Shown one piece after another: positions 4,706 through 60,001 of a stretch of DNA of 64,000 bases (positions are counted from its first letter, which is position 1; each line of letters opens with the position of its first letter). The notes beneath the pieces are model-generated. The model worked only from the letters and a program-made list of their open reading frames with translations. It was not told the DNA's origin and did no database searches. Location: the NCBI GenBank assembly GCA_902800525.1, contig CADCEV010000001.1:1-64000 (forward strand). Direction: 5' to 3'. The DNA comes from an uncultured Bacteroidales bacterium (GTDB taxonomy: Bacteria > Bacteroidota > Bacteroidia > Bacteroidales > Paludibacteraceae). The position numbers and the translations under genes were made by a program.

Positions 4706-4748
4706 AATTGTAAATTGTGCATTGTGAATTGTAAATTGTGAATTGTCA
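4706..4748 (+). repeat. Heptamer spacer island (AATTGTR family) between the two permease genes
   Basis: Tandem near-identical seven-base units (AATTGTA, AATTGTG, AATTGTC) fill the gap and touch the ATG of the second permease. The same family recurs inside recQ (9386-9423), and related units occur at 56459 and 59360. Confidence 0.85.
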
Positions 4749-5912
4749 ATGTGGTATGATTTTGTAAATGAACTGAGGAGAATATTCCGGGATCCGGGAG
4801 TGACGGTCATTTTTATCGTCGCTACCTTGGCATACCCGCTGATTTACAAGGCAGTCTATTGGAACGAGCAGATCACGAACGTCCCCGTGGCGGTGGTGGA
4901 TCTGAGTAACAGCCCGCAGAGCCGTGAGTTCCTGCATCGCTGGAATGCCTCGCCGGATATTCGTCTGACGCATACCTGTACGTCCATGGCGGAGGCGGAG
5001 AAACTGCTGCGTGACCAGACGGTACACGGCATCATCTATTTCCCGCGCGATTTTGAACGCCAGTTAGCCGATCCGCTCGGACAGGCACATATCTCGCTGT
5101 ACTGCGACATGAGCTCGTTCCTCTACATGAAAGCGATTTACCTCTCTTGCAATCAGGTGATGCTCGAATCCATGCGTAACATCCAGATCGACCGCTATGA
5201 ACAGATGGGCATGGACAAAGAGTTCGCGTGGTCGCTTGTGCAGGACGCGCCTTATACCGAGACCGCGCTCTTTACGCCCACCGGCGGTTACGGCTCGTTC
5301 CTCATTCCGGCGGTGCTGATCCTGATTTTGCATCAGACCCTTCTTTTCGGTATCTGCATGCTCGGCGGCACGGCACGCGAGGAGAACTTGGACCAATATT
5401 CCCTCCGCAGCCTTCTCGGGCGCGCGTGTGCGTATTTCCTTATTTATTACGCCCTTGCGACGGTTTTGTTAGGGCTCCTGCCACGGCTCTTCGATATTCC
5501 GCATGTGGGCGATATTGGCGATGTGCTGCTTTTTATTGTGCCGTATTTGTTAGCGGTTATTTTCTTTGGCATGTGCGTTTCGGTCTTCATCCGCAACCGC
5601 GAATCGGGCTTGGTGCTCCTGATCTCCACCTCGCTTATCTTCCTCTTTATGGCAGGTATTTCGTGGCCGAAAGAGATGATTCCGGACGCATGGAAATACC
5701 TCTCCTACACGATCCCATATACCTGGGGCGCACATGGGTTTATCCACATCAATTCGATGGGTGCATCGCTTATCCATACCAACGGCTTCACTGCCTCTGC
5801 CTCGACCGAGTTCATCGCCCTTTGGATCCTTACCGGAGTATATTTTCTCATGGCTTGTATCCTCTTTAGCGTACGAAAATACCGTCTTTTGGAGCCAAAT
5901 TCGGAAAAATAA
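4749..5912 (+). CDS. ABC-2 type permease, second of pair
   Basis: This 387-residue permease has the same architecture as its neighbour: one N-terminal helix, a soluble domain with the matching VPVAVVDLSNSPQSREF signature, then about five helices. I start at the ATG 4749 (MWYDFVNELRR); an upstream in-frame TTG lies in repeat DNA. The strong similarity in layout suggests an old duplication and a heterodimeric channel. It ends the efflux operon. Confidence 0.88.
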   Translation: MWYDFVNELRRIFRDPGVTVIFIVATLAYPLIYKAVYWNEQITNVPVAVVDLSNSPQSREFLHRWNASPDIRLTHTCTSMAEAEKLLRDQTVHGIIYFPRDFERQLADPLGQAHISLYCDMSSFLYMKAIYLSCNQVMLESMRNIQIDRYEQMGMDKEFAWSLVQDAPYTETALFTPTGGYGSFLIPAVLILILHQTLLFGICMLGGTAREENLDQYSLRSLLGRACAYFLIYYALATVLLGLLPRLFDIPHVGDIGDVLLFIVPYLLAVIFFGMCVSVFIRNRESGLVLLISTSLIFLFMAGISWPKEMIPDAWKYLSYTIPYTWGAHGFIHINSMGASLIHTNGFTASASTEFIALWILTGVYFLMACILFSVRKYRLLEPNSEK

Positions 5913-5942
5913 TGCAATTTTTAGCATTTTTTATCAAAAAAA

Positions 5943-5974
5943 TTTGGTCATGTCAAAAAAAAGTTGTAATTTTG
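5943..5974 (+). promoter_or_regulatory. Promoter of rplM-rpsI
   Basis: TTTGGTCATGTC (-33 at 5943) and TAATTTTG (-7 at 5967-5974), spacing 24. It gives a leader of about 195 bases before rplM. Confidence 0.8.
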
Positions 5975-6065
5975 CAGGCTTTTTCTCGTGAACGTTATAA
6001 TACGTGTGCGGAAAGGCGCGTAAATAAATAATTATAAATCGCCAATTTGGGCAGTGAATCGGTGA

Positions 6066-6126
6066 ACGTAGTTTGCGTATTTTTTGTAGTTTACGTAAAT
6101 TACGAAGATTACGAAAAAAACGACGA
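6066..6126 (+). repeat. 9-mer spacer island in the rplM leader
   Basis: Units related to CGTAGTTTG (reverse orientation) are followed by ACGTAAATT/ACGAAGATT units (forward), so the two halves can pair into a long imperfect hairpin. The island lies inside the transcribed leader of rplM. Confidence 0.75.
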
Positions 6127-6176
6127 AGTCCGATCGTAAAGATGTCTGTCGGGTTGGCTTAAAACAAATTAAATTA

Positions 6177-7183: not shown

Positions 7184-7232
7184 TTATTTGCGTAGCTTAC
7201 GTAAATTACGAAAACTACGAAAATAACGAAAA
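7184..7232 (+). repeat. 9-mer spacer island upstream of rpsB
   Basis: GCGTAGCTT (reverse type) followed by ACGTAAATT, ACGAAAACT, ACGAAAATA and ACGAAAACA units ends just before the rpsB start region. Confidence 0.8.
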
Positions 7233-7250
7233 CAACATTTATTAAAAACA

Positions 7251-8075
7251 ATGAGAACAAATTTTGATCAATTGCTCGAGGCTGGCGCACATTTCGGTCA
7301 CCTCAAACGCAAATGGAACCCGGCTATGGCTCCTTACATCTACATGGAGCGTAACGGAATCCACATCATCGACCTCAACAAGACTGCTATCAAAGTAGAA
7401 GAAGCAGCAGAGGCATTGAAGAACCTGGCTCGTAGCGGCCGCAAAGTACTCTTCGTTGGTACGAAAAAGCAAGCTCAGGAAGTAGTTGCTGCCCGTGCAC
7501 AAGAGGTAGGCATGCCGTACATCACAGAGCGTTGGGCAGGTGGTATGCTCACTAACTTCCCGACTATCCGCAAGGCTGTGAAGAAAATGGGTCTGATTGA
7601 CAAGATGATGACCGATGGTACGCTCGAGAACGTTTCCAAACGCGAGAAACTGCAAGTAACCCGTCAACGCGAGAAATTGGAGAAGAACCTCGGTTCTATC
7701 GCTGACATGACCCGTCTGCCGAGCGCAGTATTCGTAGTGGACGTGATGAAAGAGCACATTGCAGTAGCAGAGGCTAACCGTCTGGGAATTCCTGTATTCG
7801 GTATCGTAGATACGAACTCGAACCCGAACAACATTGACTTCGTTATCCCGGCAAACGACGATGCTACCAAAGCAATCGATGTAATCCTTGGCGCAGTATG
7901 CGAGGCTATCAAAGAGGGTCTCGAGGAGCGTAAGGTAGAGAAAGCAGACGAAGAGGCAGCAGCAGAGCAGGCAAACACCGAGGCTCCGCAGCCGAAAGAG
8001 CGTCGTCAACGCATCCGCAAAGCTGCTCCGAAAGGAGAGTCCGAGAAAGTAGCAGAGGCTAAAGAGGCTGAGTAA
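7251..8075 (+). CDS. rpsB: 30S ribosomal protein S2
   Basis: This 274-residue protein has the S2 hallmarks FGHLKRKWNPAMAPYIY, GTKKQAQE and ITERWAGGMLTNF. The last 45 residues form a charged Glu/Ala/Lys-rich extension, longer than in E. coli S2 but usual in Bacteroidales. It pairs with tsf, 38 bases downstream, as in most bacteria. There is no Shine-Dalgarno site before the ATG. The rpsI stem-loop and a 9-mer island lie upstream. Confidence 0.97.
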   Translation: MRTNFDQLLEAGAHFGHLKRKWNPAMAPYIYMERNGIHIIDLNKTAIKVEEAAEALKNLARSGRKVLFVGTKKQAQEVVAARAQEVGMPYITERWAGGMLTNFPTIRKAVKKMGLIDKMMTDGTLENVSKREKLQVTRQREKLEKNLGSIADMTRLPSAVFVVDVMKEHIAVAEANRLGIPVFGIVDTNSNPNNIDFVIPANDDATKAIDVILGAVCEAIKEGLEERKVEKADEEAAAEQANTEAPQPKERRQRIRKAAPKGESEKVAEAKEAE

Positions 8076-8076
8076 T

Positions 8077-8110
8077 CGTTAAATCGTAAATCGTTAAATC
8101 GTAAATTAAA
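8077..8110 (+). repeat. 7/8-mer spacer island between rpsB and tsf
   Basis: Alternating AATCGTTA and AATCGTA units, four copies, fill the whole gap. Confidence 0.8.
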
Positions 8111-9106: not shown

Positions 9107-10850
9107 TTCGCTCCAATTCACGACAAACATCGCAGTGCCCGCAAGGCACTGCGTTTTTTTCTCCAAAATACGCTAACAGCACTTGCTCGCGGCAGAACTG
9201 ATTTTGGTCGGCATACTCTAACATGGATTGCAGCTTGGAAACAAACTGCTCCTGGCGCTTCTCAAAGATTTCGGGCGATAGATAGATCTCTGTCTGTCGC
9301 TCGTTTGTCATCGTCAAACTGCAACCCACTGAACGCGGAATATAGGTGATAATACCTCTTTGTGCCAGCGAGACTAAAATTTCGTGAACTGAGAATTGTG
9401 AATTGTGAATTGTAAATTGATTGTCATCCGCCTCGCGTACATACTGAAGATCGGTGTAAATGCCGGTATAAGAGCGCATTAATACATCTAATAATTCCGC
9501 TTGCTCAAAAGAAAGGTTATATTCTCCTAACAAATGCCGGGCTACAAGGATCTGCACGCGAGGCTGTGTCTCATGTTCTTCCTCAAAATCGATATACCCC
9601 GCCTGACTCAGAATATGCAGGGCAGAGTAGGTTTGTATCACCGGCAGTTTCATCACTTGGCAAAGCTGGTCGATATGCAGCGTGAACCGGTGACCCAAAC
9701 CGCTTCCGGCGCCTATCTGCAGAAAATCCATGGTCTTGTGATAAACCGCCTCCACAAACTCCTTCGGCGGATAGGTGTCCGTCGCACGTTTCTGCAACTT
9801 GGCTTTGTCCTCCTGCGGATTATAAAGCAACACGGCATAAGCCCTCTTGCCGTCTCGACCGGCTCGACCTGCCTCCTGATAATAACTCTCCAGATGCGAC
9901 GGCAGATCATAATGGATCACTACGCGCACGTCCGGCTTGTCAATACCCATACCGAATGCGTTCGTTGCCACAATAACGCGGGTTTTGCCTTCCGTCCATG
10001 CCTGTTGCCGCTCATTCCTCTCCTTCGTAGTCAGCCCCGCATGGTAATAATCAACAGACCTACCCCCGTCCCCTCCCTGAAAGGAGGGGAGGTGATTGAG
10101 CCATTCGGATAGTTCCTGAGCACGTTTGCGGTTGCGGACATAGACGATGGCAGAGCCCGGAACGCGCGAGAGGATGTGCGCCACTTGTTCCTCTTTTTGG
10201 TCGGTGCGCCGCACAACATACGTCAAGTTTTCGCGGTGGAAAGATTTGCGCAACACATGTTTCTCCTCAAAGCCCAATTTATCCTGAATATCATCGATAG
10301 TGTCCGGCGTCGCAGTTGCGGTTAGCGCCAACACGGGAACACCCGGAAGCACTTTGCGCACTTCCGCAATCTTCAAATAAGATGGTCGGAAGTCGTACCC
10401 CCATTGGGAAATACAATGCGCTTCATCCACGGCGATCAAGCAAATCGGCAGATCCGCCAGACGTTTCCTAAACTCCTCACTCTCAAGCCGTTCCGGCGAG
10501 CAATACAGAAAATGGTATGGCCCGTATAGACAATTATCCAGTGCCACACGCTGCTTATCCCATGTCATGCCGGTATAAACAGCCGCGGCGTGAATACCGC
10601 GCGCTTTCAGATTCTCCACTTGGTCACGCATCAAAGCTATCAGCGGCGTTACCACCAAACAAAGCCGTTTCTCCGGATTCTCATGGGCCATGACGAGGGT
10701 CGGTACTTGAAAACAGATACTCTTTCCTCCACCGGTCGGCATCAACGCCAAAGTGTCACGTCCTGCCAACACGGAAGTGATAATCTCCTCCTGCAACGGA
10801 CGGAAATTATCATACCCGAAATACGTATGTAGAGCCTCTCTTGGTGTCAT
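9087..10850 (-). CDS. recQ: ATP-dependent DNA helicase RecQ
   Basis: A 3'-5' superfamily 2 helicase of 587 residues for recombination and fork repair. Visible motifs: Walker A MPTGGGKSICFQVP, DEAH (VDEAHCISQWGYDFR), the TATATP motif and motif VI QEAGRAGRDGK. A cysteine site close to the C-terminus (CGHCDVC, with an earlier FCREQ) replaces the usual mid-protein zinc site and HRDC domain, a layout I recall for short Bacteroidetes RecQ proteins. I start at 10850 (MTPREALH); 10859 is possible, and anything further upstream precedes the promoter. Two segments look inserted: NHLPSFQGGDGGR between helicase motifs, and NQFTIHNSQFSVHE near the winged helix, both encoded by repeat-family DNA. Confidence 0.92.
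   Translation of the reverse strand: MTPREALHTYFGYDNFRPLQEEIITSVLAGRDTLALMPTGGGKSICFQVPTLVMAHENPEKRLCLVVTPLIALMRDQVENLKARGIHAAAVYTGMTWDKQRVALDNCLYGPYHFLYCSPERLESEEFRKRLADLPICLIAVDEAHCISQWGYDFRPSYLKIAEVRKVLPGVPVLALTATATPDTIDDIQDKLGFEEKHVLRKSFHRENLTYVVRRTDQKEEQVAHILSRVPGSAIVYVRNRKRAQELSEWLNHLPSFQGGDGGRSVDYYHAGLTTKERNERQQAWTEGKTRVIVATNAFGMGIDKPDVRVVIHYDLPSHLESYYQEAGRAGRDGKRAYAVLLYNPQEDKAKLQKRATDTYPPKEFVEAVYHKTMDFLQIGAGSGLGHRFTLHIDQLCQVMKLPVIQTYSALHILSQAGYIDFEEEHETQPRVQILVARHLLGEYNLSFEQAELLDVLMRSYTGIYTDLQYVREADDNQFTIHNSQFSVHEILVSLAQRGIITYIPRSVGCSLTMTNERQTEIYLSPEIFEKRQEQFVSKLQSMLEYADQNQFCREQVLLAYFGEKNAVPCGHCDVCRELERIIQQPM
9132..9161 (+). terminator. tsf terminator embedded in recQ coding sequence
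   Basis: GCAGTGCC (9132-9139) and GGCACTGC (9145-9152) form a perfect 8-bp stem followed by seven T's. On the opposite strand the same bases encode the RecQ zinc-site segment AVPCGHCD. Confidence 0.8.
9386..9423 (-). repeat. Heptamer array (AATTGTR family) inside recQ
   Basis: Units GAATTGT, GAATTGT, GAATTGT, AAATTGA at strict seven-base spacing encode FTIHNSQF-like residues in RecQ. It matches the intergenic island at 4706-4748. Confidence 0.85.
10057..10093 (+). repeat. C-rich palindromic element inside recQ
   Basis: CCTACCCCCGTCCCCTCCCT, then a short loop and AGGAGGGGAGG, can fold back on itself. A near copy in the same + orientation lies in ispE at 50919-50955. Here it is antisense to the gene and still in frame. 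Confidence 0.8.
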
Positions 10851-13362: not shown

Positions 13363-13947
13363 ATGAATCTTTCTGAATTAACCGACAAAATCTACGCGGA
13401 AGGCGTAGAAAAAGGAAACGCCGAAGCGCAACAGATTGTGGAGAAAGCGAACGCCAAGGCGGCCGACATCGTTGCAGAGGCTGAGAAAAAAGCAGCTGCT
13501 ATCATTGCTGATGCGGAAAGCAAATCTGCTGATCTCGACAAGAAAACACGTGCGGAACTCAAGCTCTATGCGGAGCAATCCGTTAACGCCGTTAAAACTG
13601 AAATCACCAACCTCCTTTCTGACCAAATCGCTGCAGACAGCGTGAAAGCAGCTACGGCTGATGCAAAATTCATGCAGGGCGTGATTGCTAAACTGGCAGA
13701 GCAGATGGCGAAAGATGGAGAAGTGCTCATCGAGGCGAAAGATGCAGAGGCATTGAAGAAATACTTCACCGCCAACGCCAAAGCACTCCTCGAGAAAGGC
13801 GTGAAGATTGCAGAAGTAAAAGGCATCAAGACGGACTTCACTATTCAGCCGGCAAAGGGCGGTTACAAACTCGCTTTCGGTGACGCTGAGTTCATCGCTT
13901 ACTTCAAAGAAATGCTGAGACCACAGTTGGTTGACCAACTGTTCTAA
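13363..13947 (+). CDS. ntpE: V-type ATPase subunit E (peripheral stalk)
   Basis: This 194-residue protein has a long N-terminal Ala/Lys/Glu-rich helix (about residues 10-75) of the kind that pairs with the G/H subunit, and a globular C-terminal domain. Its place at the head of the V-type operon (E, DUF2764, A, B, D, I, K) matches subunit E. It forms the stator linking the A3B3 head to the membrane sector. Confidence 0.88.
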   Translation: MNLSELTDKIYAEGVEKGNAEAQQIVEKANAKAADIVAEAEKKAAAIIADAESKSADLDKKTRAELKLYAEQSVNAVKTEITNLLSDQIAADSVKAATADAKFMQGVIAKLAEQMAKDGEVLIEAKDAEALKKYFTANAKALLEKGVKIAEVKGIKTDFTIQPAKGGYKLAFGDAEFIAYFKEMLRPQLVDQLF

Positions 13948-14072
13948 GTTGAAAGTTGAAAGTTGAGAGTTGAGAGAAGTCCAATAGTTGAAAGTTCATA
14001 GTTTATAAACTTTCCACTTTAAAACTCTCCAACTTCTTTAAACTTTAAACTCTAAACTCTAAACTTTTAAAA
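13946..14072 (+). repeat. Heptamer spacer island (AGTTGAA family), inverted halves
   Basis: Units of GTTGAAA/GTTGAGA run forward for about 45 bases, then reverse-complement units (AAACTTT, AAACTCT) fill the rest up to the next ATG. The whole gap between ntpE and the DUF2764 gene is repeat, and the halves can pair. Confidence 0.85.
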
Positions 14073-14074
14073 AA

Positions 14075-14689
14075 ATGACTTACGAATATTTACTTACCGG
14101 ACTTCCGGAACTCAAAGCAGGTTCAGATGCGCCTATCTCTATCGAAAAACTCGATGAGTTGTTCGACGAGCAGTTGCGTGCATCCGACAAGGCTTATCTG
14201 GACTTGTTGCGCGCGCCGATGAATGAAGAGACGCTCGCACAAGGCCTTAAAGCCAAGAATCGCTTTATTCGCGAGTGGTTCGGTTTTAATCAGGATATGA
14301 ACAACGTGCTCGTGGCGCAAATTTGTCGCAAGCACGGCTTCGATGTCAAGACCCAGATCGTCGGAGATGGAGAAGTAGCGGAGCAGTTACGCACGCACAC
14401 CTCTCAAAAGGACTTCGGTCTGAACGAACTGCCGGGAGACTACCAGCCGATTCTTGCACTCGCGCAGATTGAAGATCTCATGCAGCGTGAGAAAGCCCAA
14501 GACGCGATCCGTTTTGAGTGGTTGCAAGACCGCACGGAGTTTGATTTCTTCTCCCCCGAGATGGTCTTTGCCTATTACCTCGAAGCGCTCATGCTCCATC
14601 GCTGGTCTATCCTCACCATCGAAGAAGGCGAAAAAATCTTCCGCGACATGGTGGCTGATATGAAAAAAGGGGTAAAGCTGGACGCGTAG
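14075..14689 (+). CDS. DUF2764 family protein of the V-ATPase operon
   Basis: This 204-residue soluble, mostly helical acidic protein starts with MTYEYLLTGLPELKAG. It sits between subunits E and A, the place occupied in Bacteroides V-type operons by DUF2764 proteins, which resemble subunit C-like proteins. A role in assembly, or as a subunit C equivalent linking rotor and head, is plausible but inferred, since no separate subunit C or F is visible in this operon. No catalytic motif is evident. Confidence 0.75.
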   Translation: MTYEYLLTGLPELKAGSDAPISIEKLDELFDEQLRASDKAYLDLLRAPMNEETLAQGLKAKNRFIREWFGFNQDMNNVLVAQICRKHGFDVKTQIVGDGEVAEQLRTHTSQKDFGLNELPGDYQPILALAQIEDLMQREKAQDAIRFEWLQDRTEFDFFSPEMVFAYYLEALMLHRWSILTIEEGEKIFRDMVADMKKGVKLDA

Positions 14690-14758
14690 TTTACGTAGTT
14701 TGCGTAGGCTCCGTAGTTTACGTAAAATACGAAAACAACGAAAACAACGAAAATTACA
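14684..14758 (+). repeat. 9-mer spacer island upstream of ntpA
   Basis: CGTAGTTTA-type units (reverse) then ACGAAAACA-type units (forward). It overlaps the last codons of the DUF2764 gene. Confidence 0.85.
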
Positions 14759-16528: not shown

Positions 16529-16559
16529 TTCGTAATTTTTAATTTTTAATTTTTAATTA
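16529..16559 (+). repeat. Heptamer spacer island (TTTTTAA family)
   Basis: Three to four TAATTTT units at seven-base spacing fill the gap between ntpA and ntpB. Confidence 0.8.
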
Positions 16560-16561
16560 TT

Positions 16562-17884
16562 ATGGCTTTAGCATTTCAAAAGATATATACGCAGATTACT
16601 GCTATTACAAAAGCGACCTGTTCGCTGAAGGCCGAAGGAGTAGGTAACGACGAACTCGCTACCGTCAACGGCAAACTCGCACAGGTAGTAAAAATCATCG
16701 GTGACGAGGTGACGCTGCAGGTGTTCCAGGGTACCGAAGGTATTCCGACCAACGCCGAAGTAGTGTTCCTCGGCAAAGCACCGAGCCTCAAAGTGTCTGA
16801 CCAACTCGCAGGCCGTTTCTTTAATGCGTACGGCGACCCGATTGATGGCGGACCGGCTATCGAAGGCAAAGAGGTTGAGATCGGTGGTCCTTCTGTGAAC
16901 CCCGTTCGTCGTAAACAACCGTCAGAGCTCATCGCTACCGGTATTGCAGGTATTGACCTGAACAACACCCTCGTTTCCGGACAGAAGATCCCGTTTTTCG
17001 CAGACCCGGATCAGCCGTACAACCAAGTGATGGCAAACGTAGCACTCCGTGCAGAGGCAGATAAGATCATCCTCGGCGGTATGGGTCTGACCAACGATGA
17101 CTACCTCTATTTCAAGAACGTCTTCACTAACGCAGGTGTGCTCGACCACATCATTTCGTTCGTCAACACGACCGAGAACCCGCCTGTTGAGCGACTCCTT
17201 ATTCCGGATATGGCGCTTACTGCTGCAGAGTATTTCGCGGTGGAGAAACATGAGAAAGTGCTTGTCCTCTTGACCGACATGACGCTTTACGCCGACGCAT
17301 TGGCTATCGTGTCGAACCGTATGGATCAGATTCCTTCCAAGGACTCCATGCCGGGTTCGCTTTATTCCGACCTCGCGAAGATCTACGAGAAGGCAGTTCA
17401 GTTCCCGGAGCAGGCAGGTGGCGGTTCTATCACCATCATCGCCGTAACAACGCTTTCCGGAGGTGATATCACACACGCTATTCCGGATAACACCGGTTAC
17501 ATCACAGAGGGTCAGCTATATCTCCGTCGTGACTCCGAAATCGGTAAAGTCATCGTCGATCCGTTCCGCTCACTCTCGCGTCTGAAACAACTCGTAGCCG
17601 GCAAGAAGACCCGCGAAGACCATCCGCAGGTGATGAACGCCGCTGTTCGCTTGTATGCCGACGCTGCTAACGCAAAGACCAAGAAGGAAAACGGTTTCGA
17701 CTTGACCAACTACGATGAGCGCTGCTTGGACTTCGCACGCGACTACAGCCGCGAGATCCTCGCTATCGACGTGAACATCAATACCGTCCAGATGCTCGAC
17801 GTAGCATGGCAACTCTTCGGTAAGTACTTCAAACCCGAAGAGGTCAACATCAAAGCCGCATTAGTAGAAAAATATTGGAAATAA
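16562..17884 (+). CDS. ntpB: V-type ATPase regulatory subunit B
   Basis: This 440-residue non-catalytic head subunit shows PGSLYSDLAKIYEKA and the typical SLSRLKQL segment, while the A-type P-loop is absent, as expected for B. It alternates with A in the hexamer. It is followed not by subunit D, as in the usual order, but by a small unrelated gene inside a repeat island. Confidence 0.95.
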   Translation: MALAFQKIYTQITAITKATCSLKAEGVGNDELATVNGKLAQVVKIIGDEVTLQVFQGTEGIPTNAEVVFLGKAPSLKVSDQLAGRFFNAYGDPIDGGPAIEGKEVEIGGPSVNPVRRKQPSELIATGIAGIDLNNTLVSGQKIPFFADPDQPYNQVMANVALRAEADKIILGGMGLTNDDYLYFKNVFTNAGVLDHIISFVNTTENPPVERLLIPDMALTAAEYFAVEKHEKVLVLLTDMTLYADALAIVSNRMDQIPSKDSMPGSLYSDLAKIYEKAVQFPEQAGGGSITIIAVTTLSGGDITHAIPDNTGYITEGQLYLRRDSEIGKVIVDPFRSLSRLKQLVAGKKTREDHPQVMNAAVRLYADAANAKTKKENGFDLTNYDERCLDFARDYSREILAIDVNINTVQMLDVAWQLFGKYFKPEEVNIKAALVEKYWK

Positions 17885-17885: not shown

Positions 17886-17963
17886 TTTTCGTAGTTTTCG
17901 TAATTACCGTAATTTCCGTATTTTTCGTAAACAACACAAACTACGTAAACAACGCAAACAACG
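17886..17963 (+). repeat. 9-mer spacer island, left flank of the four-helix-bundle gene
   Basis: Reverse-type units (CGTAGTTTT, CGTAATTAC, CGTATTTTT) then forward-type units (ACAAACT, ACGTAAACA, ACGCAAACA, ACGTTTACA). Confidence 0.85.
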
Positions 17964-17972
17964 TTTACAACT

Positions 17973-18332
17973 ATGCAAGTATATTCATTTGAAGATTTGG
18001 TAATTTGGAAAGAAGCACGGAAAATTATAAATGAAGTATATTCTTTATTAAAAGATAACCGTGATTTTGATTTTAAAAGTCAAATTAATCGTGCTGCCAT
18101 CTCCATTATGAATAACATAGCTGAAGGGTTTGAAAGAAATAGGAATAGTTCTGATAGTAAACAATTTAAGAACTTCTTAAATATTTCTTATGGCTCATGT
18201 GGCGAAGTTAGAAGCATGCTATATTTAGCAGAAGATCTGGAGTATATTAACTCTACAAACGCCAAAAAACTTCGTGATGATTGTTATAGTTTATCTTGCA
18301 AGATAGTAGCGTTTATGCAAGCATTACATTAA
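17973..18332 (+). CDS. Four-helix bundle protein (23S rRNA intervening-sequence / Avd-like family)
   Basis: This 119-residue protein carries the family signature: FEDLVIWKEARKIINEVY, then NIAEGFERN and FLNISYGSCGEVRSML. Members were first found in intervening sequences of 23S rRNA genes, and the fold is shared with the Avd accessory protein of diversity-generating retroelements. Their cellular role is not settled. It interrupts the V-ATPase operon between B and D, is far richer in A and T than its neighbours, and is bounded on both sides by 9-mer spacer DNA, which suggests a late insertion. No reverse transcriptase or template repeat is near. Confidence 0.88.
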   Translation: MQVYSFEDLVIWKEARKIINEVYSLLKDNRDFDFKSQINRAAISIMNNIAEGFERNRNSSDSKQFKNFLNISYGSCGEVRSMLYLAEDLEYINSTNAKKLRDDCYSLSCKIVAFMQALH

Positions 18333-18372
18333 CGTAAACTACGTAAACTACGAAAACTACGTAAACAACAAA
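18331..18372 (+). repeat. 9-mer spacer island, right flank of the four-helix-bundle gene
   Basis: Forward-only units ACGTAAACT, ACGTAAACT, ACGAAAACT, ACGTAAACA run up to the ntpD leader. Confidence 0.88.
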
Positions 18373-20751: not shown

Positions 20752-22145
<1,394 letters not shown>

Positions 22146-24133: not shown

Positions 24134-24262
24134 GCGTACGCGCGAAAAGGACCAAAAAGAACCATGATTATATCGCAAAAAAGTTGTAATTTTGCAAACG
24201 GAATAAAATGGAGAATGCCGAAAATCCGAAGAAGAGTAGGCAAAACTAAAAATTTAATAGCT

Positions 24263-48205: not shown

Positions 48206-48209
48206 GGTG

Positions 48210-48240
48210 CAAAAGTACTACAATTTTTGGACATACACAA
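48210..48240 (-). promoter_or_regulatory. Promoter of the TonB receptor cluster
   Basis: Minus strand: TTGTGTATGTCC (from 48240) and TACTTTTG (48217-48210). Confidence 0.82.
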
Positions 48241-48271
48241 TCCCTAAAAATTGGGAAATTGCATTTTTTAC

Positions 48272-48302
48272 TTGTATATGTGCAATATTTTTCGTACCTT
48301 TG
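48272..48302 (+). promoter_or_regulatory. Promoter of the divergent ABC cluster
   Basis: TTGTATATGTGC (48272) and TACCTTTG (48295-48302). The two divergent promoters are 32 bases apart, so one regulator could serve both. Confidence 0.85.
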
Positions 48303-48323
48303 CACTCGATTTTGAAATACACC

Positions 48324-52692: not shown

Positions 52693-52730
52693 AAATAATT
52701 TGAAAATTCAAGGATTTGAATATTCGAAGA

Positions 52731-53906
52731 TTATCCTAACATCGTCAGGAGAACACCGGCGGCAACGGCAGAACCGATCACTCCGGCAACGTTCGGACCC
52801 ATAGCGTGCATGAGCAGGAAGTTGGACGGATTTTCCTCTTGACCCACTGTCTGGCTCACACGCGCTGCCATAGGAACTGCGGAAACACCGGCAGATCCGA
52901 TCAGCGGATTGATCTTCTCTTTGAGGAAGAGATTCATAAACTTAGCCAAAAGCACACCGCCTGCGGAACCCATACCAAACGCTACAATACCCATCGAGAG
53001 AATCATAATGGTCTGCCAGTTCAGGAAACTGCCTGCAGTTGCGGTAGCGCCCACAGAGAGACCTAAGAAAATCACTACGATGTTCATCAACTCGTTCTGA
53101 GCGGTTTTGGATAGACGATCCACTACTCCACACTCCTTCATCAGGTTACCCAGCATCAGACAGCCGATCAGCGGAGCTGCGTCCGGCAGGATGAGTGCTA
53201 CGATAGCGGTGATGATGATCGGGAAAACAATCTTCTCGGTCTTGGATACCGGACGTAACTGACCCATTTTAATCGCGCGTTCTGCTTTTGTCGTGAGCGC
53301 ACGCATAATAGGCGGTTGAATCACCGGAACCAACGCCATGTAGCTATAAGCAGCAATAGCGATCGGTCCCAAGAGATGCGGAGCTAATTTCGAAGTCAGG
53401 AAGATAGACGTCGGACCATCTGCTCCACCGATAATACCAATTGAACCGGCCTCTGCCGGCGTAAAGCCCATCCAGTTAGCGCAGAGGAATGTAACGAAGA
53501 TACCGATCTGAGCAGCTGCTCCGAGGATCAACGACTTCGGATTCGCAATCAGCGGACCAAAATCTGTCATCGCTCCCACACCGATGAAAATCAGACACGG
53601 ATAGACGCCGGCTTTCACTCCGATATAGAGCACGTCGAGCAGGCCTCCTTCTTTGAGAATCGCGCCATAGGAGTGATAAGCAGGGCTTGTCGGATCAAGG
53701 AAAGCCGACCATAACTCGCTATGGAACATTCCGGCTCCAGGCAGGTTGGTCAGCAACATACCGAAAGCTATTGGAAGCAGCAAAAGCGGCTCATATTTCT
53801 TATGAATAGCAAGGTAAAGCAGGAAGAACGACACCAAGAGCATTACGCCCTGTTGCCAGGTCATCTGCATGAATCCCATGCCTTGAAAAAATTCCAAAAT
53901 ATCCAT
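52731..53906 (-). CDS. mmdB: Na+-transporting decarboxylase subunit beta
   Basis: This 391-residue membrane subunit of the OadB/GcdB/MmdB family couples decarboxylation of carboxybiotin to Na+ export. It has about ten helices and the conserved loop [17 protein letters not shown] with the Asp involved in Na+ and proton handling. The C-terminus ([20 protein letters not shown]) is typical. Its neighbours make methylmalonyl-CoA decarboxylase the likely enzyme, giving propionyl-CoA in the succinate-propionate route. Confidence 0.92.
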
Positions 53907-53917: not shown

Positions 53918-53943
53918 CTTAATTAAAAATTAAAAATTAAGAA
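53918..53943 (-). repeat. Heptamer spacer (ATTAAAA family) between mmdB and mmdC
   Basis: Three to four AATTAAA units, as at 40099 and 54872. Confidence 0.75.
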
Positions 53944-54393
53944 TTAACCCAAAACGATGAGCAGGTCATCCTGCATTACGTTTTGACCTGGGGTAACGGC
54001 AATCTGCTTAACGGTTCCATCTGCCTCTGCCATGATAGCGTTCTCCATCTTCATGGACTCAAGCGTCAGCAGCGTATCACCACGTTTAACAGCCTGACCT
54101 TCGCTTACTAACACTTTGATTACAGATCCGGGCAGCGGGCTCTTTACTTGCACGCCGGCGGCAGGAGCAGCTGCGGGTTTCGGAGCCTCTGCTTTCGGCG
54201 CAGGAGCTGCCGCAGGCTTCGGAGCGGGAGCAGGAGCCGGTTTGGCTACTGGTTTCGGAGCCGGAGTAGCGGGAACCTCGGTCTCTACGGTATATACTTT
54301 GCCGTTAACGGTTACGTTCGTCTTGCCGGCTTCAATTTCTTCTACTGCGCACTTGTACTCGGCGCCATTGATCTTAAATGTGAATTCTTTCAT
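53944..54393 (-). CDS. mmdC: Biotin carrier subunit of the decarboxylase
   Basis: This 149-residue protein has an N-terminal beta-strand domain, an Ala/Pro linker (about residues 42-82) and a C-terminal biotinyl domain with the target Lys in LESMKMENAI. It shuttles CO2 from the carboxyltransferase to the membrane beta subunit. It lies between mmdD and mmdB in the operon. Confidence 0.93.
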   Translation of the reverse strand: MKEFTFKINGAEYKCAVEEIEAGKTNVTVNGKVYTVETEVPATPAPKPVAKPAPAPAPKPAAAPAPKAEAPKPAAAPAAGVQVKSPLPGSVIKVLVSEGQAVKRGDTLLTLESMKMENAIMAEADGTVKQIAVTPGQNVMQDDLLIVLG

Positions 54394-54871: not shown

Positions 54872-54901
54872 AATTACGAATTAAAAATTAAAAATTACGA
54901 A
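54872..54901 (-). repeat. Heptamer spacer (ATTAAAA family) between mmdA and mmdD
   Basis: AATTAAA-type units flanked by TTACGAATT copies. Confidence 0.75.
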
Positions 54902-56458
54902 TTACAAAGGAATATTCGAGTGTTTCTTGAGCGGGTTGGTCAGACGCTTGGTCTGTAACATCTCAAACGCACGGATGATGCGGCTGCGCGTGTAGCGCGG
55001 CTCGATCACATCATCAATATAACCGCGGTTGGCTGCCTGATACGGAGAAGCGAACAGGTCTTTGTACTCAGCCTCTTTCTCTGCGATGAAAGCTTTCTTC
55101 TCTGCGGGATCCTCGATAGCCTTGATAGCTTTGGCTTGAAGAACTCCCACAGCTCCACTCGCTCCCATTACAGCGATCTCGGCGTTCGGCCATGCGTAGC
55201 ACATATCGCCACGGAGTTGCTTACAGCTCATCACAATGTGCGATCCGCCGTAAGACTTACGGACAGTAATAGTAACCTTTGGAACAGTTGCTTCACCGTA
55301 AGCGAACATCAACTTAGCTCCGTGGTCAATGATACCTGCGTACTCTTGTCCGGTTCCGCAGAGGAAGCCCGGTACATCCACAAGCGTCAAGATTTGGATA
55401 TTGAAAGCGTCGCAGAAACGAACGAAACGCGCTGCTTTACGGCTGGCGTCACAATCAAGCACTCCAGCAAGCCAACTCGGCTGGTTAGCGATGATACCGG
55501 TCGAACGACCATTGAAACGAGCAAAACCGCAGATCACGTTCTTCGCGTAGTCCTTGTGAACCTCCATAAAATCACCATTATCAACAATCGTGTTGATGAT
55601 CTCGTGCATGTCATATGGCTTGTTCGGGTCTGCCGGAACGATGTCGTTCAGGTTGTCATCCACGCGGGTGATGTCATCGGTGCATGCTACGACAGGAGCC
55701 TCCTCCATATTGTTCTGCGGGATGAAGGAAACGAGACGACGAACTTCAGCAAGCGCCTCTTCCTCGGTTGCAGCCACGAAATGGGTTACACCGGATTTGG
55801 TAGCATGAATCTTTGCACCGCCGAGTTGCTCTACGGTCACATCCTCACCGGTTACGGACTTCACCACCTTCGGACCGGTAATGAACATATAACTGTTCTG
55901 CTCGGTCATCATGATGAAGTCGGTCAATGCCGGGCTATACACAGCTCCGCCGGCGCACGGACCGAAAATCACGCTGATCTGCGGTACAACGCCAGAAGCT
56001 AAGATGTTACGCTCAAAGATCTCTGCATATCCCGCGAGCGCGCAAGCTCCTTCCTGGATACGTGCTCCACCTGAGTCATTCAGACCGATGATCGGAGCTC
56101 CGAGTTTCATAGCCTGATCCATCACGTTGCATATCTTGAGGGCCATCGTCTCGCTCAACGAACCGCCGATTACAGTAGCGTCCTGCGCAAAGACAAACAC
56201 CAGACGACCGTCAATCGTACCCGATCCGACAGCTACGCCATCGCCTAAGAACACTTTCTTCTCCATGCCAAAATCATGGCAACGGTGCGTGAGGAACATA
56301 TTCACTTCCTCAAACGAACCCTCGTCAAGAAGCATGTTGATACGCTCGCGGCAGGTATAACTGCCCTTTGCGTGATGCTTCTCAATCGCTGCTTCACCGC
56401 CACCGGCCATCGCCTTCTCGCGGTTAGTAACCAATTTATCTAATTTTGCTTGATCCAT
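54902..56458 (-). CDS. mmdA: Methylmalonyl-CoA decarboxylase/carboxyltransferase alpha subunit
   Basis: This 518-residue protein of the acyl-CoA carboxylase beta family has two crotonase-like halves. GLNDSGGARIQEGACALAGY and GPCAGGAVYSPALTDF form the first active-site oxyanion regions; VPGFLCGTGQEYAGIIDHGA and the C-terminal SPYQAANRGYIDDVIEPRYT complete the second. It moves CO2 from methylmalonyl-CoA to biotin. I start at 56458 (MDQAKLDKL). Preceded by methylmalonyl-CoA epimerase, it fixes the substrate of the operon. Confidence 0.95.
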   Translation of the reverse strand: MDQAKLDKLVTNREKAMAGGGEAAIEKHHAKGSYTCRERINMLLDEGSFEEVNMFLTHRCHDFGMEKKVFLGDGVAVGSGTIDGRLVFVFAQDATVIGGSLSETMALKICNVMDQAMKLGAPIIGLNDSGGARIQEGACALAGYAEIFERNILASGVVPQISVIFGPCAGGAVYSPALTDFIMMTEQNSYMFITGPKVVKSVTGEDVTVEQLGGAKIHATKSGVTHFVAATEEEALAEVRRLVSFIPQNNMEEAPVVACTDDITRVDDNLNDIVPADPNKPYDMHEIINTIVDNGDFMEVHKDYAKNVICGFARFNGRSTGIIANQPSWLAGVLDCDASRKAARFVRFCDAFNIQILTLVDVPGFLCGTGQEYAGIIDHGAKLMFAYGEATVPKVTITVRKSYGGSHIVMSCKQLRGDMCYAWPNAEIAVMGASGAVGVLQAKAIKAIEDPAEKKAFIAEKEAEYKDLFASPYQAANRGYIDDVIEPRYTRSRIIRAFEMLQTKRLTNPLKKHSNIPL

Positions 56459-56491
56459 AATTTTCAATTATCAATTGTCAATTATCAATTA
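56459..56491 (-). repeat. Heptamer spacer (AATTATC/AATTGTC) between mce and mmdA
   Basis: Four to five alternating units; touches the stop of mce and the start of mmdA. Confidence 0.82.
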
Positions 56492-56902
56492 TTGGGGTTG
56501 TTGACAGAGCTCGGTCAAAACACCTTTCGTGCTCTTCGGGTGCAAGAATGCAATCATCAGGTTCTCTGCGCCTTTGCGCGGAGCTTTGTCGATCAGCTGG
56601 ATGCCTGCTGCCTCGCACTCTGCCAGCGCTTCTGCTACGTTCTCTACGTTGAATGCTACGTGGTGAACACCGCCGCGGCCACCGTTCTTCTCAATGAACT
56701 TGGCAATCGTGGACTCAGGGCTCGTCGGCTCCAAAAGCTCGATCTTTACCTCGCCGACTTTGAAGAAAGCGGTACGAACTTTCTGATCCTCAACTACTTC
56801 AATAGAATAACACTTGTTTCCCGAAAGAAACTCAAAGAATGGAGCAGCCTCTTCAATCGAAGTTACTGCAATACCCAAATGTTCAATGTGTGTGGGTTTC
56901 AT
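56489..56902 (-). CDS. mce: Methylmalonyl-CoA epimerase
   Basis: This 137-residue vicinal-oxygen-chelate protein interconverts (R)- and (S)-methylmalonyl-CoA. Metal ligands are visible in THIEHLGIAV (His), the GGVHHVAFNVENV segment and the C-terminal Glu region (TKGVLTELCQ). First gene of the decarboxylase operon, which serves succinate-to-propionate fermentation with Na+ export. Confidence 0.95.
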   Translation of the reverse strand: MKPTHIEHLGIAVTSIEEAAPFFEFLSGNKCYSIEVVEDQKVRTAFFKVGEVKIELLEPTSPESTIAKFIEKNGGRGGVHHVAFNVENVAEALAECEAAGIQLIDKAPRKGAENLMIAFLHPKSTKGVLTELCQQPQ

Positions 56903-56960
56903 AAAATGAAAATATTTAGTTGTTTTTATATGTTTTTCTCGTATAAGACGAAATCGGGTA

Positions 56961-56991
56961 CAAAATTACAAAAAAAAAATGACATACACAA
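56961..56991 (-). promoter_or_regulatory. Promoter of the mce-mmd operon, with overlapping palindrome
   Basis: Minus strand: TTGTGTATGTC (from 56991) and TAATTTTG (56968-56961). The palindrome CATACAC/GTGTATG (56983-57000) overlaps the -33 element and is a possible operator. Confidence 0.8.
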
Positions 56992-57015
56992 TAGTGTATG
57001 CCACTTTTCTTGAAT

Positions 57016-58245
57016 TTATTTGCTTTCTCGCACAATTTTTATCATTTTTACAAGCGCTTTGATGCAAGCTCGGTCTGTTATCTGCTCTCTGAGTTTGCCT
57101 AAATGGAAACATTCTGCATAAGTCTCTGTGGGAGTGGACCATCCTATCCAAACGGTTCCGACGGGCTTGGCTTCTGATCCTCCGGTTGGACCTGCAATTC
57201 CGCTTGTAGCAATTGCAAAATCCGCTCCGATTTGCTTACGAACGGTACTTGCCATTACCTTTACTACTTCTTCGCTAACCACACCGTGCGTTTGGATCAT
57301 TTCTTGTGGAACGGACAACAACTGCTCTTTCACACTGTTATCATAACTGACAATCGACCCGAAATAGAATGCCGAACTGCCGGGATGCTTACTCAGTAAG
57401 GATGCCAATTTGCCACCTGTGCAGGATTCGGCGGTGGCTATCGTTTGATGGCGTGCTGTCAAAAGCCTGCCTAAAACCATTTCAAGCGGCTCGTCCGTTT
57501 CAGCTACCAAGTAATCCGCCGTTAATTCCTTCAATCGCTCAAACCATTGTGCCATTTCAGCTTCCGAACAATCTCCATAAGCGGACAATCGAAGCCGGAT
57601 GATTCCGTCTTTCGGCAAGTACGCTAAATGCAAAGAAGAGGGCATGGAGTTCTCATATTCTTCCAATAATATAGCTAAGGCAGATTCGCTTATTCCGTTA
57701 ACTTGTAGCGTTTTATGAATGATACTTGCAGTAGTACGTCCGATGTAAGGAAGAATCTGTTCCTCCATTGCAATCTTCATTTCATACGGCACGCCGGGCA
57801 TGGAAGCCAGTATTTTTCCGTCCTTATGAAACACCATCAGAGGAGCACTACCAACTCTGTTTTCCAATATCTCCGCACGCTCCGGAACCATCCATTGTGT
57901 AGCAGTTAATCGGTTCAGTACATCCGGACGGTCGGCATACAAACGCTCCACATGTGCACGCACGCGCGCATCTTCAATAAGGTGTGTTCCGAAATACTCG
58001 CAAAGCACATGCTTGGTGATGTCGTCTTTTGTCGGACCCAAACCGCCTGTTGTCAATACCACATCCACTCGCCCGAAAGCCTCGTCCAAGGCGGCGATAA
58101 TATGCTCTCGCGAATCATGAACGGAAGTGATTTGGTATAATTCTATCCCTTGTTCGTTCAGTTTCTGTGCGATCCAGGCGGAATTGGTATCTACTACCTG
58201 CCCGATCAGCAGCTCATCTCCTATCGTTATTACTTCTGCGCGCAT
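57016..58245 (-). CDS. cinA: CinA family protein (nicotinamide-nucleotide amidase / pyrophosphatase)
   Basis: This 409-residue two-domain protein has an N-terminal MoCF/COG1058 domain (ITIGDELLIGQVVDTNSAWI, TTGGLGPTKDD) and a C-terminal amidohydrolase domain (ATAESCTGGKLASLLSKHPG, TSGIAGPTGGSEAKPVGTVW). It recycles pyridine nucleotides from NMN. I start at 58245 (MRAEVITIGDE); it overlaps the DUF3109 stop by 16 bases, and a start at 58257 is possible. Last gene of the gyrA-led series. Confidence 0.93.
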   Translation of the reverse strand: MRAEVITIGDELLIGQVVDTNSAWIAQKLNEQGIELYQITSVHDSREHIIAALDEAFGRVDVVLTTGGLGPTKDDITKHVLCEYFGTHLIEDARVRAHVERLYADRPDVLNRLTATQWMVPERAEILENRVGSAPLMVFHKDGKILASMPGVPYEMKIAMEEQILPYIGRTTASIIHKTLQVNGISESALAILLEEYENSMPSSLHLAYLPKDGIIRLRLSAYGDCSEAEMAQWFERLKELTADYLVAETDEPLEMVLGRLLTARHQTIATAESCTGGKLASLLSKHPGSSAFYFGSIVSYDNSVKEQLLSVPQEMIQTHGVVSEEVVKVMASTVRKQIGADFAIATSGIAGPTGGSEAKPVGTVWIGWSTPTETYAECFHLGKLREQITDRACIKALVKMIKIVRESK

Positions 58246-58814
58246 TGTTTTTTCCATTCTGTTGCAGTCAATTCCAATTCATTATACCAACTCTCCCCAA
58301 AACGCCGGATCAGTGGCTCTTTCAAGAACTGATACAAAGGTACATGTTTCTTCTTTCCCAATATCCGGGCGCAATGACAAATGTCCCAGCGGTGGTATTC
58401 CAAACCCGTATATTCGCCCACTTGCGTCAGACGAATTGGATATAAATAACAGGAAATAGGTTTCTTGAAATCTATTTTTCCTGCATTGAAAGCCTTCTCT
58501 ATCAAGCAATAACACCATCCGTTGTGATCCGTTCTGGCAAAAACGCAATCCTTGTCATTCACAATGGAAGTAACACGCTCCCCGGAAGGATCATTATACG
58601 CTATACCCTGCTCTTCTACAACCGCTTTTGCCTCTTTGGTCATCTCCGGCAGCAAAATCGGCAGGATACTTTGTATCTTTTTCTCCTCTTCGTCGGTCAA
58701 TGGAGCGCCGGCATCACCCTCTATGCAGCAACATCCGCGGCATGTGTCCAGATCGCAGCAGAACTCCTTCTCGAGCACGTCCAACGATACTAATGTGTTC
58801 TGAATCAAAAACAT
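58230..58814 (-). CDS. DUF3109 family cysteine-rich protein
   Basis: This 194-residue protein is rich in Cys: CCDLDTCRGCCCIEGDAG near the N-terminus, then DCVFARTDHNGWCYCLIEKA, ISCYLYPIRL and ICHCARI. The spacing fits metal or Fe-S binding, as in the related YkgJ group. Function unknown. It overlaps mntP by 10 bases upstream and cinA downstream, so the three are translated together. Confidence 0.85.
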   Translation of the reverse strand: MFLIQNTLVSLDVLEKEFCCDLDTCRGCCCIEGDAGAPLTDEEEKKIQSILPILLPEMTKEAKAVVEEQGIAYNDPSGERVTSIVNDKDCVFARTDHNGWCYCLIEKAFNAGKIDFKKPISCYLYPIRLTQVGEYTGLEYHRWDICHCARILGKKKHVPLYQFLKEPLIRRFGESWYNELELTATEWKKQCAQK

Positions 58815-59359
58815 AGACCTTCAATACAGATTTTTATACCTAAAGCGATCAGCACTAATCCGCCCACTAACTCCATGTTGAGTTTCAGTTTGCCGAAAAG
58901 CATGCCGATTAAGTAACCGCCTAAAGAGAACACCGCCGTGATGCAACCTATTGTTACGATTGAAGGATAGAGCCATTCGGGATAAGGAACAAAAAGCAGA
59001 CCCGTTGCTAACACATCTATACTGGTTGCCACCGCTAACAGCAGCAAATGACTTATATCCCAGTTGGCAGATTTCTCTTTCTCATGCTCGTCGTGTAAAG
59101 ACTCATAAATCATCTTCACACCCAAGAATCCCAACAATACCAAAGCGATCCATGGCGCGTAAGTCTCCATAAATGACACAAACAAACTGCCTGCATAATA
59201 GCCCACTATCGGCATTCCCATGTGGAAGCAACCGAAGATAAGCGCCATCAGCATTGCTTTGGGATGCCATTTGCCTTGACTCATGCCCTGAACCGTCGAA
59301 ATCGCACAGCAGTCCATCGCCAAACCAATTCCCATTATGATAACATTCAGCCAATCCAT
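58805..59359 (-). CDS. mntP: Manganese efflux pump MntP
   Basis: This 184-residue protein has six helices and two repeated DUF204 halves. The conserved Asp of GLAMDCCAIS and of VATSIDVLATGLLF lie in the paired first helices; GCFHMGMPIVGYYAG also matches. It exports Mn(II). I start at ATG 59359 (MDWLNVII). Confidence 0.92.
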   Translation of the reverse strand: MDWLNVIIMGIGLAMDCCAISTVQGMSQGKWHPKAMLMALIFGCFHMGMPIVGYYAGSLFVSFMETYAPWIALVLLGFLGVKMIYESLHDEHEKEKSANWDISHLLLLAVATSIDVLATGLLFVPYPEWLYPSIVTIGCITAVFSLGGYLIGMLFGKLKLNMELVGGLVLIALGIKICIEGLCF

Positions 59360-59390
59360 AATTATCAATTGTCAATTATCAATTGTCAAT
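59360..59390 (-). repeat. Heptamer spacer (AATTATC/AATTGTC) between def and mntP
   Basis: Four alternating seven-base units; overlaps the def stop codon. Confidence 0.85.
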
Positions 59391-59934
59391 TTCTCCTGTA
59401 CTTATACCTCGCTCCCACTTTGCCTTTCGCGATGGCTTGCAGCTTCTTTTGCGTAAAAGTCTTTCGGATCGGCGATATGCGGTCGGTGAACACATGCCCC
59501 TCCAAATGGTCATATTCGTGCTGTACAATACGTGCCTGAAAATCCGTGAACACCTCTTCGTGCTCCACAAAATTCTCGTCCAAATAACGCATCTTGATGG
59601 TCTTCGGACGAACTACATTTTCGCTAATTCCGGGCAGCGAAAGGCATCCCTCGGAATATGTACACGTATCTTCGCTGGTTTCCAAAAGTTCAGGATTAAT
59701 AAATGCACGCTTGAAATCTTTGCATTCCGGGTAGTCCTCTGCCAACTCCGATCCATCTACCACAAACAGCCGCCAGGGCTTGCCCACTTGCGGAGCTGCC
59801 AAACCGCAACCCTCGGCTTGCGTCAACGTCTCATACATGTCCGCGATGAACTGTTTCAACTCCGGCGTGTTTTCTATCTCTTCAGCCTGTTTGCGTAGTA
59901 CCGGCTGTCCGTACAAATATATTGGTAAAATCAT
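59386..59934 (-). CDS. def: Peptide deformylase
   Basis: This 182-residue metalloenzyme removes the N-formyl group from nascent proteins. All three motifs are present: GCGLAAPQVG, EGCLSLP and QHEYDHLEG. The length is normal for type I. It lies between ruvX and mntP in a long minus-strand series. Confidence 0.97.
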   Translation of the reverse strand: MILPIYLYGQPVLRKQAEEIENTPELKQFIADMYETLTQAEGCGLAAPQVGKPWRLFVVDGSELAEDYPECKDFKRAFINPELLETSEDTCTYSEGCLSLPGISENVVRPKTIKMRYLDENFVEHEEVFTDFQARIVQHEYDHLEGHVFTDRISPIRKTFTQKKLQAIAKGKVGARYKYRRN

Positions 59935-59940
59935 AAACGA

Positions 59941-60001
59941 TTTATTGGTTTAACAACTTAACGGTTTAACAACTTAACAGTTTAACAGTTTAACGTTTAA
60001 C
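59941..60001 (-). repeat. 8-mer spacer island (GTTTAACA/ACTTAACA) between ruvX and def
   Basis: Six units at eight-base spacing (GGTTTAAC, AACTTAAC, GGTTTAAC, AACTTAAC, AGTTTAAC, AGTTTAAC), touching the ruvX stop. Confidence 0.88.

Follow-up and report, generated by a model that had tools for sequence, protein, structure and literature searches.

Dispersed short-unit tandem arrays in spacers and protein loops of an uncultured Paludibacteraceae bacterium and their association with IVP-family genes

The first 64,000 nucleotides of contig CADCEV010000001.1 (the window) belong to an uncultured Bacteroidales bacterium of the Paludibacteraceae (GCA_902800525.1), whose assembly of 2.39 Mb in 33 contigs is 92.7% complete. 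By FabD, the named relatives that come closest are metagenome assemblies of Bacteroidales and Paludibacteraceae, several of them rumen-labelled. A sequence-only reading had noted that many gaps between the genes of the window are filled by strictly periodic, AT-rich tandem units and had ascribed these islands to an active process acting on spacers genome-wide. The analysis of the window, its genome and related genomes of this group of gut bacteria showed that the arrays are dispersed, that they turn over at orthologous positions, that they invade proteins in frame, that they frame many genes of the 23S_rRNA_IVP family (IVP genes) in inverted orientation and that they follow the IVP gene. We hold it to be somewhat probable that the islands are short-unit arrays which are dispersed and replaceable, spread by copying and are partly tied to mobile units carrying an IVP gene.

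Tandem arrays were detected with Tandem Repeats Finder (TRF), and the repeat families named from the sequence alone were present at their places in the window. An AATTGTR array (4705-4750) separates two ABC-2 permease-like genes. Nine-nucleotide units of the ACGTAAACT type occur 5' of the gene at 6177 (6091-6117, TTACGAAAA), 5' of the ribosomal protein S2 gene (7197-7233), at 14685-14753, where CGTAGTTTA is followed by ACGAAAACA in inverted halves and a stop codon is overlapped, and on the two sides of an IVP gene (17886-17964 and 18332-18366). The S2 and EF-Ts genes are separated by a AATCGTTA/AATCGTA array (8074-8106). The GTTGAAA array at 13946-14067 has inverted halves with a hairpin z-score of -2.98; its arm composite is found again at other loci, and the orthologous gap measures 4 nt in seven congeners. 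The TAATTTT/AATTAAA family is represented between V-ATPase subunits A and B (16533-16562, TAATTTT), in a convergent gap where the relative L045 has CGTAGTTTA 9-mers (40100-40125, AATTAAA), at 53921-53947, where AATTAAA is kept in L192, L195 and L198 and other sequences stand in other congeners, and at 54879-54908 (AATTAAA/AATTACG). A AAAATAGGAAAATAAGA array lies between fabD and a short-chain dehydrogenase gene (22151-22195) and an array of the 11-mer AACTAAAGAAT at 36669-36724. The ATTTGAAAATTCAAAG array at 52698-52732 is the same in L195, and the closer L192 has AATTAAA instead. AATTATC/AATTGTC arrays fill 56459-56492 and 59352-59391, the latter gap being 2 nt in five congeners, and a GGTTTAAC/AACTTAAC array occupies 59947-60001. 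The half-way switch of orientation proposed for some islands is real at 13946-14067, 14685-14753 and 17886-17964. At 27601-27661, upstream of the gene at 27906, a TGACCGTTT array stands opposite its own inverted copy 8 nt off.

The excess over chance was quantified in a sample of 464 kb, made up of the window and 20 further stretches of 20 kb each from this genome. One stretch was picked for its IVP gene, and the sample contains all three IVP genes found in the genome. Genes were called with a simple hexamer-based program that overlooks the IVP gene of the window, and 232 gaps measuring 20 nt or more (41.5 kb in total) resulted. Arrays with a TRF score of at least 40 were found in 82 of the 232 gaps and arrays with a score of at least 50 in 51, as compared with 1-10 and 0-3 gaps, respectively, in twenty dinucleotide shuffles of the same gaps. 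The periodicity thus stands above a shuffled control, and the islands are confirmed as real and beyond chance. The commonest period is 7, followed by 11. For periods up to 30, gaps hold 118 arrays (2.74/kb) versus 62 in genes (0.147/kb). The density of arrays with periods of 6-11 and scores of at least 50 is 11.0 per 100 kb in this genome and 8.1 per 100 kb in congeners. In the loci surrounding fabD, other Paludibacteraceae have no array in 67 kb, and the densities per 100 kb are 0.4 in Bacteroides and relatives, 3.5 in Parabacteroides, Tannerella and Porphyromonas, 2.1 in Rikenellaceae and 0.7 in Marinilabiliales, values outside the genus that rest on 0-4 arrays per group, with 0-0.3 in block-shuffled controls. 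The array phenomenon is enriched in this genus.

Local replication slippage, with no dispersal, would let chance seeds in AT-rich spacers grow into runs of heptamer-like units. The prevalence of period 7 agrees with it, and 7 nt has been suggested to correspond to the polymerase contact length (reported in PMC4679880); seed-like spacers such as TAAATCGTAAATGTC occur in L062. The relationships among the arrays are difficult to reconcile with such an origin. At least three 11-mers are shared with another array by 107 of 178 arrays, which form families of 51, 17, 11, 7 and fewer members, whereas permuting the unit letters within each array left 15-29 linked and a largest family of 3-9. The 20-mer AATTGTGAATTGTGAATTGT has 72 matches at 38 separate places on 14 contigs of its own genome (overlaps merged by hand). 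Among 100 congeners, 35 matches were found in G034, 1-7 in each of six others and none in the remaining 93; the letter-reversed control gave 6 matches in 3 of 101 genomes. In a draw of 295 other Bacteroidota genomes from the phylum, 9 contain the 20-mer and 2 its reversed control. This distribution looks like a species-specific burst. A composite of a GTTGARA array with a AGAAGTCTTCTAG-like motif, too, was found at several loci. Slippage alone, one of the causes originally proposed, is insufficient because one unit family sits at 38 separate places; it shapes arrays but does not spread them, and we regard it as an unlikely explanation of the islands.

The orthologous spacers of congeners reveal how the arrays turn over. 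The tally covered 19 gaps. Four others, with a promoter, a terminator or an open reading frame (ORF), had been excluded in advance, and gaps represented by under four species or lacking any sequence of 20 nt were set aside. The resulting 208 gap-species comprise 90 filled with arrays (54 gap-family combinations), 88 minimal spacers of at most 18 nt, 24 with other sequence and 6 longer than 300 nt, counts in which gap 48 is one family only through conserved coding sequence counted inside the gap and the near-identical L059 and L060 are both counted at gap 38. Despite similar flanking proteins, one gap can be minimal (0-18 nt) in some congeners and carry unrelated array families in others. Of the 41 comparisons between the window and a relative at a flanking protein identity of at least 95%, 8 show common gap sequence, 19 different sequence and 14 presence versus absence. 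Six array families and three minimal states were found among ten species at gap 57 (window 59935-59996). The observation named beforehand as fatal to an active process, relatives that share the same non-repetitive gap sequence, was sought in congeners, with the opposite outcome. The families differ at the same orthologous gap, the unit vocabularies are common across loci and one family has undergone a species-specific burst, in support of the genome-wide process first proposed. Taken as a whole, the first interpretation is borne out in part, and the observation itself extends beyond what had been noted. The differences between orthologous gaps and the burst fit dispersal and replacement, not slippage alone. 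In the gap between V-ATPase subunits A and B, L053 and L060 have a 2.3-kb insertion with a secreted-looking ORF, and the other 12 congeners compared have 0-211 nt.

Turnover of this kind could also reflect horizontal exchange, with spacers imported by interspecies homologous recombination as pieces of neighbouring genes. V-ATPase subunit I of the window is 94% identical to that of L041 and 72% to that of L039, with subunits B and D 98-100% identical to both; exchange therefore occurs. Some arrays, furthermore, are common to several species at one gap (gap 52). At gap 48, however, the ATTTGAA units of the window are kept in the more distant L195, with flanking proteins of 80% and 95% identity, and are replaced by AATTAAA in the close relative L192, with 86% and 98%. 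Import neither creates unit families nor spreads them to many loci of one genome, and as the source of the islands we judge it distinctly unlikely.

The arrays are not confined to spacers, where the islands had first been described. Four arrays of the same families lie within genes of the window. The AATTGTG-family array in recQ (9384-9419, reverse strand) reads in frame as QFTIHNSQFSVH. On the forward strand, V-ATPase subunit I carries 9-mers in frame (19415-19453, NVNNENYADYENYA) in a loop that is different in L041 and L039, and fabD carries two 9-mer arrays in frame. At the first (21649-21684) the congener loop is empty or has other families, and an insert similar to the second (22029-22063) was found solely in L010 and L046 among aligned relatives. 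Among coding arrays with periods up to 25, 25 of 61 belong to a family that recurs in another array and 21 of 61 to one that recurs in a spacer array, to be compared with a chance linkage of 15-29 of all 178 arrays in the unit-permuted control. Proteins with in-frame arrays include FabD, RecQ, CysS, MurB, MurF, QueA, PrmC and TatD, and array-coded peptides are seen as QFTIHNSQF in RecQ, QISNLNSQISNLKS in PrmC and KLKIKNYELK in TatD, and also in CysS. RecQ was named from its Pfam domains and the others by matches above the NCBIfam cut-offs; the names RecD2-, AmiC-, TtcA- and RlmL-like stand for matches below the cut-off.

At one FabD loop, 28 of 39 loci fit the pattern used for extraction. Fifteen of the 23 distinct forms are 18-24 nt and the other eight 39-66 nt; most of the long loops have AATGACC, CCAACAG, AATCACC, ACGAAAACT or CTTCAAAC units or a CCCTCCC...GGGAGGG palindrome. 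Additional forms such as HSQFSTLNSQ occur in an alignment of congeners that was counted by rows and not by species; some relatives are seemingly one genome stored in two collections (L014/L051, L016/L062 and L017/L053 are examples). TatD, QueA and RlmL each have differing array-coded peptides at one loop in 9-10 congeners. Between L059 and L060, which are 97.5% identical over 6.7 kb, the fabD array differs by one base at equal length; it was the sole array compared, the remaining alignment being largely a difference of gene content. The rewriting of housekeeping-enzyme loops by repeat DNA, seen here among close species, bears on protein evolution and on the annotation of genes. Two other features were observed at these genes. 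In L060, an island 3' of fabD is unaligned in L059 and by eye begins with a Cas9-like start, followed by CRISPR-like repeats. The 5' part of queA in the genome of the window has a 48-nt stretch (L167:6694-6741) that was not seen there in nine aligned congener QueA sequences and that has matches of about 90-100% identity elsewhere in several congeners.

Arrays might instead be selected regulatory or structural elements such as intercistronic hairpins, stop-codon insulators or ribosome-binding spacers. They do abut stop and start codons, as the sequence-only reading had pointed out, and this contact is largely expected because many of the compared spacers are just 0-18 nt when empty. In arrays of co-directional gaps, stop-bearing frames are more numerous in sense than in antisense in 37 cases and fewer in 21. 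Some arrays form hairpins, but array gaps overall are not more structured than others (mean z-score of -1.33 for 53 array gaps versus -1.69 for 109 other gaps); hairpins thus concern only a subset, and an RNA hairpin as the general function was rejected. Many orthologous gaps, moreover, do with 0-18 nt, unrelated families replace one another, and arrays also lie inside proteins. We consider a selected element very unlikely as the general explanation.

The IVP gene of the window (17973-18332, forward strand) encodes a four-helix-bundle protein (PF05635, 102.2 bits; TIGR02436) and lies in the V-ATPase operon between the genes for subunits B and D. On its left is the array at 17886-17964 (CGTAGTTTT...), in which the orientation switches, and on its right the ACGTAAACT array at 18332-18366, which is inverted relative to one part of the left array and direct relative to another. 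None of the 16 congeners compared showed an IVP gene in its B/D gap: ten have a gap of 12-22 nt, five one of 34-141 nt holding arrays or other sequence, and the last a gap of 364 nt that contains a different ORF. The three IVP genes found in the genome score 102.2, 117.5 and 96.5 bits to PF05635 (cut-off 33.8), and all of them lie between arrays with an inverted match score of 22-27. The IVP protein is related to PDB 2gsc, and one of the three also matches bAvd (PF22296, 42.8 bits; cut-off 40). The mean G+C content of IVP genes is 37%, as compared with 47% for the window.

The inverted framing was quantified across the genus by comparing the left and right 150-nt flanks at a complementarity score of at least 18. 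The IVP loci were the best-scoring matches, mostly one per genome; after identical proteins were dropped, 60 frames gave 40 distinct ones, 39 with flanks, a few of them orthologous (L173/L178 and L135/L179). Complementary flanks were found for 18 of 39 IVP genes versus 2 of 333 genes of the window's own genome (Fisher p = 5.5e-18), for 10 of 24 IVP genes versus 1 of 97 genes in a same-locus control (p = 1.5e-7) and for 10 of 237 mismatched flank pairs. The IVP family is present in 153 of 198 Bacteroidota genomes searched. Elsewhere in the phylum, 11 of 30 IVP genes, a set without control genes in which four look like one orthologous locus, have complementary flanks, with array words of their own. 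The gap that holds the window array at 56459-56492 holds in L195 an IVP gene (107.9 bits to a profile built here) between inverted TTTGAAAA arrays. The IVP flanks of L132, L179, L174, L187 and L190 are GC-richer arrays that appear to consist of an invariant linker in alternation with short palindromes, the two arms of which change together. We make no claim on variable GACC-stem-loop palindromes, for which stems of at least 3 were found in 16 of 128 distinct inserts versus about 6 in shuffles by a regular expression that caught unrelated sequence.

The arrays follow the IVP gene. In pairs of IVP genes with no detected common neighbour, flank arrays (at least six 9-mers) are shared in 27 of 38 pairs at 60% IVP identity or above, in 46 of 182 at 45-60%, in 17 of 262 at 35-45% and in 1 of 145 below 35%. 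L185 and L188, whose surroundings are unrelated, have 84.6% DNA identity over 501 nt consisting of the IVP gene and its 3' array; the similarity stops within a few bases of the 3' array, and the 5' flanks differ. The small mobile unit, the best supported of the causes first proposed, is thus borne out for units with an IVP gene by their inverted framing and by arrays that follow the gene. It is shown for those units only and not for each solitary array.

Several observations weigh against a copying process tied to IVP units. Below the inverted-flank threshold are 21 of 39 IVP genes, and direct flank repeats of the same score occur in 6 of 39 IVP genes and 10 of 333 controls. The mismatched-pair control of the phylum set gave 13 of 120, which we ascribe by eye to the orthologous-looking loci L224, L227, L242 and L246; because this control looks contaminated by orthologous loci, we relied on the genus control genes. 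For lack of independence among the IVP pairs, the Fisher value for shared arrays exaggerates the strength of the association, and in L147, L151 and L173 the outer flank is too short for the neighbour test on that side. Just three IVP genes in the whole genome stand against 118 gap arrays in the 464-kb sample. G003 (75% complete) has no IVP match and yet one AATTGTGAATTGTGAATTGT match; dependence of arrays on an IVP gene in the same genome was therefore not seen for this family. The window, L192, L195 and L198 have kept the array of gap 49 across a DNA divergence of about 13%. Neither a target-site duplication nor an exact junction was found at the inserts, whose junctions are undefined because they replace spacer or loop. 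No nuclease or recombinase activity is known for the IVP protein.

Arrays added as templated ends by a reverse transcriptase or a REP-type (Y1) transposase would be in keeping with the resemblance of IVP proteins to Avd of diversity-generating retroelements (PMC10053308) and with the bAvd match of one own IVP protein. Either enzyme is highly improbable as the generator, since the own genome has no match to PF00078, which has matches in 24 of 100 congeners, and one sub-cut-off match to PF01797, which passes its cut-off in 24 of 100, an absence that is not certain because the assembly is 92.7% complete. Templated extension, proposed at the outset, is not supported in the form of a resident reverse transcriptase. 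Because neither enzyme is a general generator, copying by the host with an IVP-assisted mobile subset is favoured. A copying process would carry arrays between the loci of one genome, in bursts peculiar to a species, and the incoming array would replace the scant sequence of a spacer or protein loop. Selection would then retain just the inserts that lie between genes or in frame, and slippage would enlarge or trim the arrays. Host replication or repair, by template switching or ectopic gene conversion and perhaps aided by the IVP protein, may supply the copying. In our reading, some of the islands are footprints or ends of small mobile units with an array-IVP-array layout. Solitary arrays and inverted arrays without a gene may stand for such units in empty form or for one of their ends, as the inverted halves at 13946-14067 might; we infer that solitary arrays arise from the same process. 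A bolder proposal is that the Avd-like IVP protein itself promotes transposase-free copying of its own array ends, the units forming a mobile-element class of their own that is common in Bacteroidota, with solitary arrays as footprints and the 23S intervening sequence (IVS) as its rRNA branch; we put this forward tentatively and think it rather unlikely.

Other features of the window lie apart from the arrays. The large gene at 24995-27322 has internal repeats of 69 nt and 138 nt (TRF), and by eye we take it to encode a leucine-rich-repeat (BspA-like) surface protein. A DUF805b cis-regulatory RNA (Rfam, 40.5 bits) was found at 24208-24242. The stretches at 56951-57029, 48208-48321 and L167:4575-4660 match many places in the congeners searched. 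By eye they are presumably of a Bacteroidota promoter type and not an element, and the pair in the window was set aside.

The system combines features of the IVS, of Rickettsia palindromic elements and of heptamer repeats, with the mechanism reached by inference. In the open-access literature, surveyed by titles and beginnings of abstracts with subscription journals mostly outside, no description of array-framed IVP genes or of such array turnover was found. The IVS of 23S rRNA, for example in Coxiella and Leptospira, is an IVP-family ORF within terminal inverted repeats; it is sporadic, presumably horizontal in its spread, its mobility mechanism is not known, and its function and origin are called unclear (PMC4990558). 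The units described here carry the IVP/S23 ORF (PF05635), and complementary flanks that may correspond to such terminal inverted repeats were seen for 18 of 39 IVP genes in the genus and 11 of 30 in the phylum, the others being below threshold. In contrast to the IVS, they lie in protein operons and spacers and not in rRNA (the three own IVP genes are between protein-coding frames; no further copies were sought in the rRNA genes), and their ends are tandem arrays of many families that move together with the unit. Rickettsia palindromic elements and intragenic miniature inverted-repeat transposable elements are similar in that repetitive DNA of several families lies in frame in many unrelated genes (PMC10969869), as was found here. 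Whereas the Rickettsia elements are about 150 bp (PMC10969869), the arrays here mostly have units of 7-11 nt, with species-specific families at the same loop and a gene-bearing partner. The parent-like form that was found carries an IVP gene and not a known transposase, Y1_Tnp being the sole transposase searched for. The diversity-generating retroelement shares with this system an accessory protein, Avd, of which IVP is a four-helix-bundle relative; unlike in the retroelement, no PF00078 match was found in the own genome at its level of completeness, and template repeats were not sought. The heptamer (TAACTGA) repeats of Beggiatoaceae, Cyanobacteria and five Bacteroidetes are mostly direct, intergenic and near start codons, patchy among species and common to several phyla with no evident mechanism (PMC4679880). 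The tandem units of 5-11 nt beyond chance place the arrays with dispersed heptamer-type simple repeats (LSSR/STRR). They differ in their many simultaneous families, which are replaced at orthologous gaps and in part have inverted halves, and in the link to the IVP gene and the invasion of coding loops. With arrays in about one-third of the sampled spacers, the array-framed IVP genes offer a testable system for the questions raised by both the IVS and the heptamer repeats, and arrays that follow the IVP gene, together with their dispersal, point to a previously undescribed way for small DNA units to spread.

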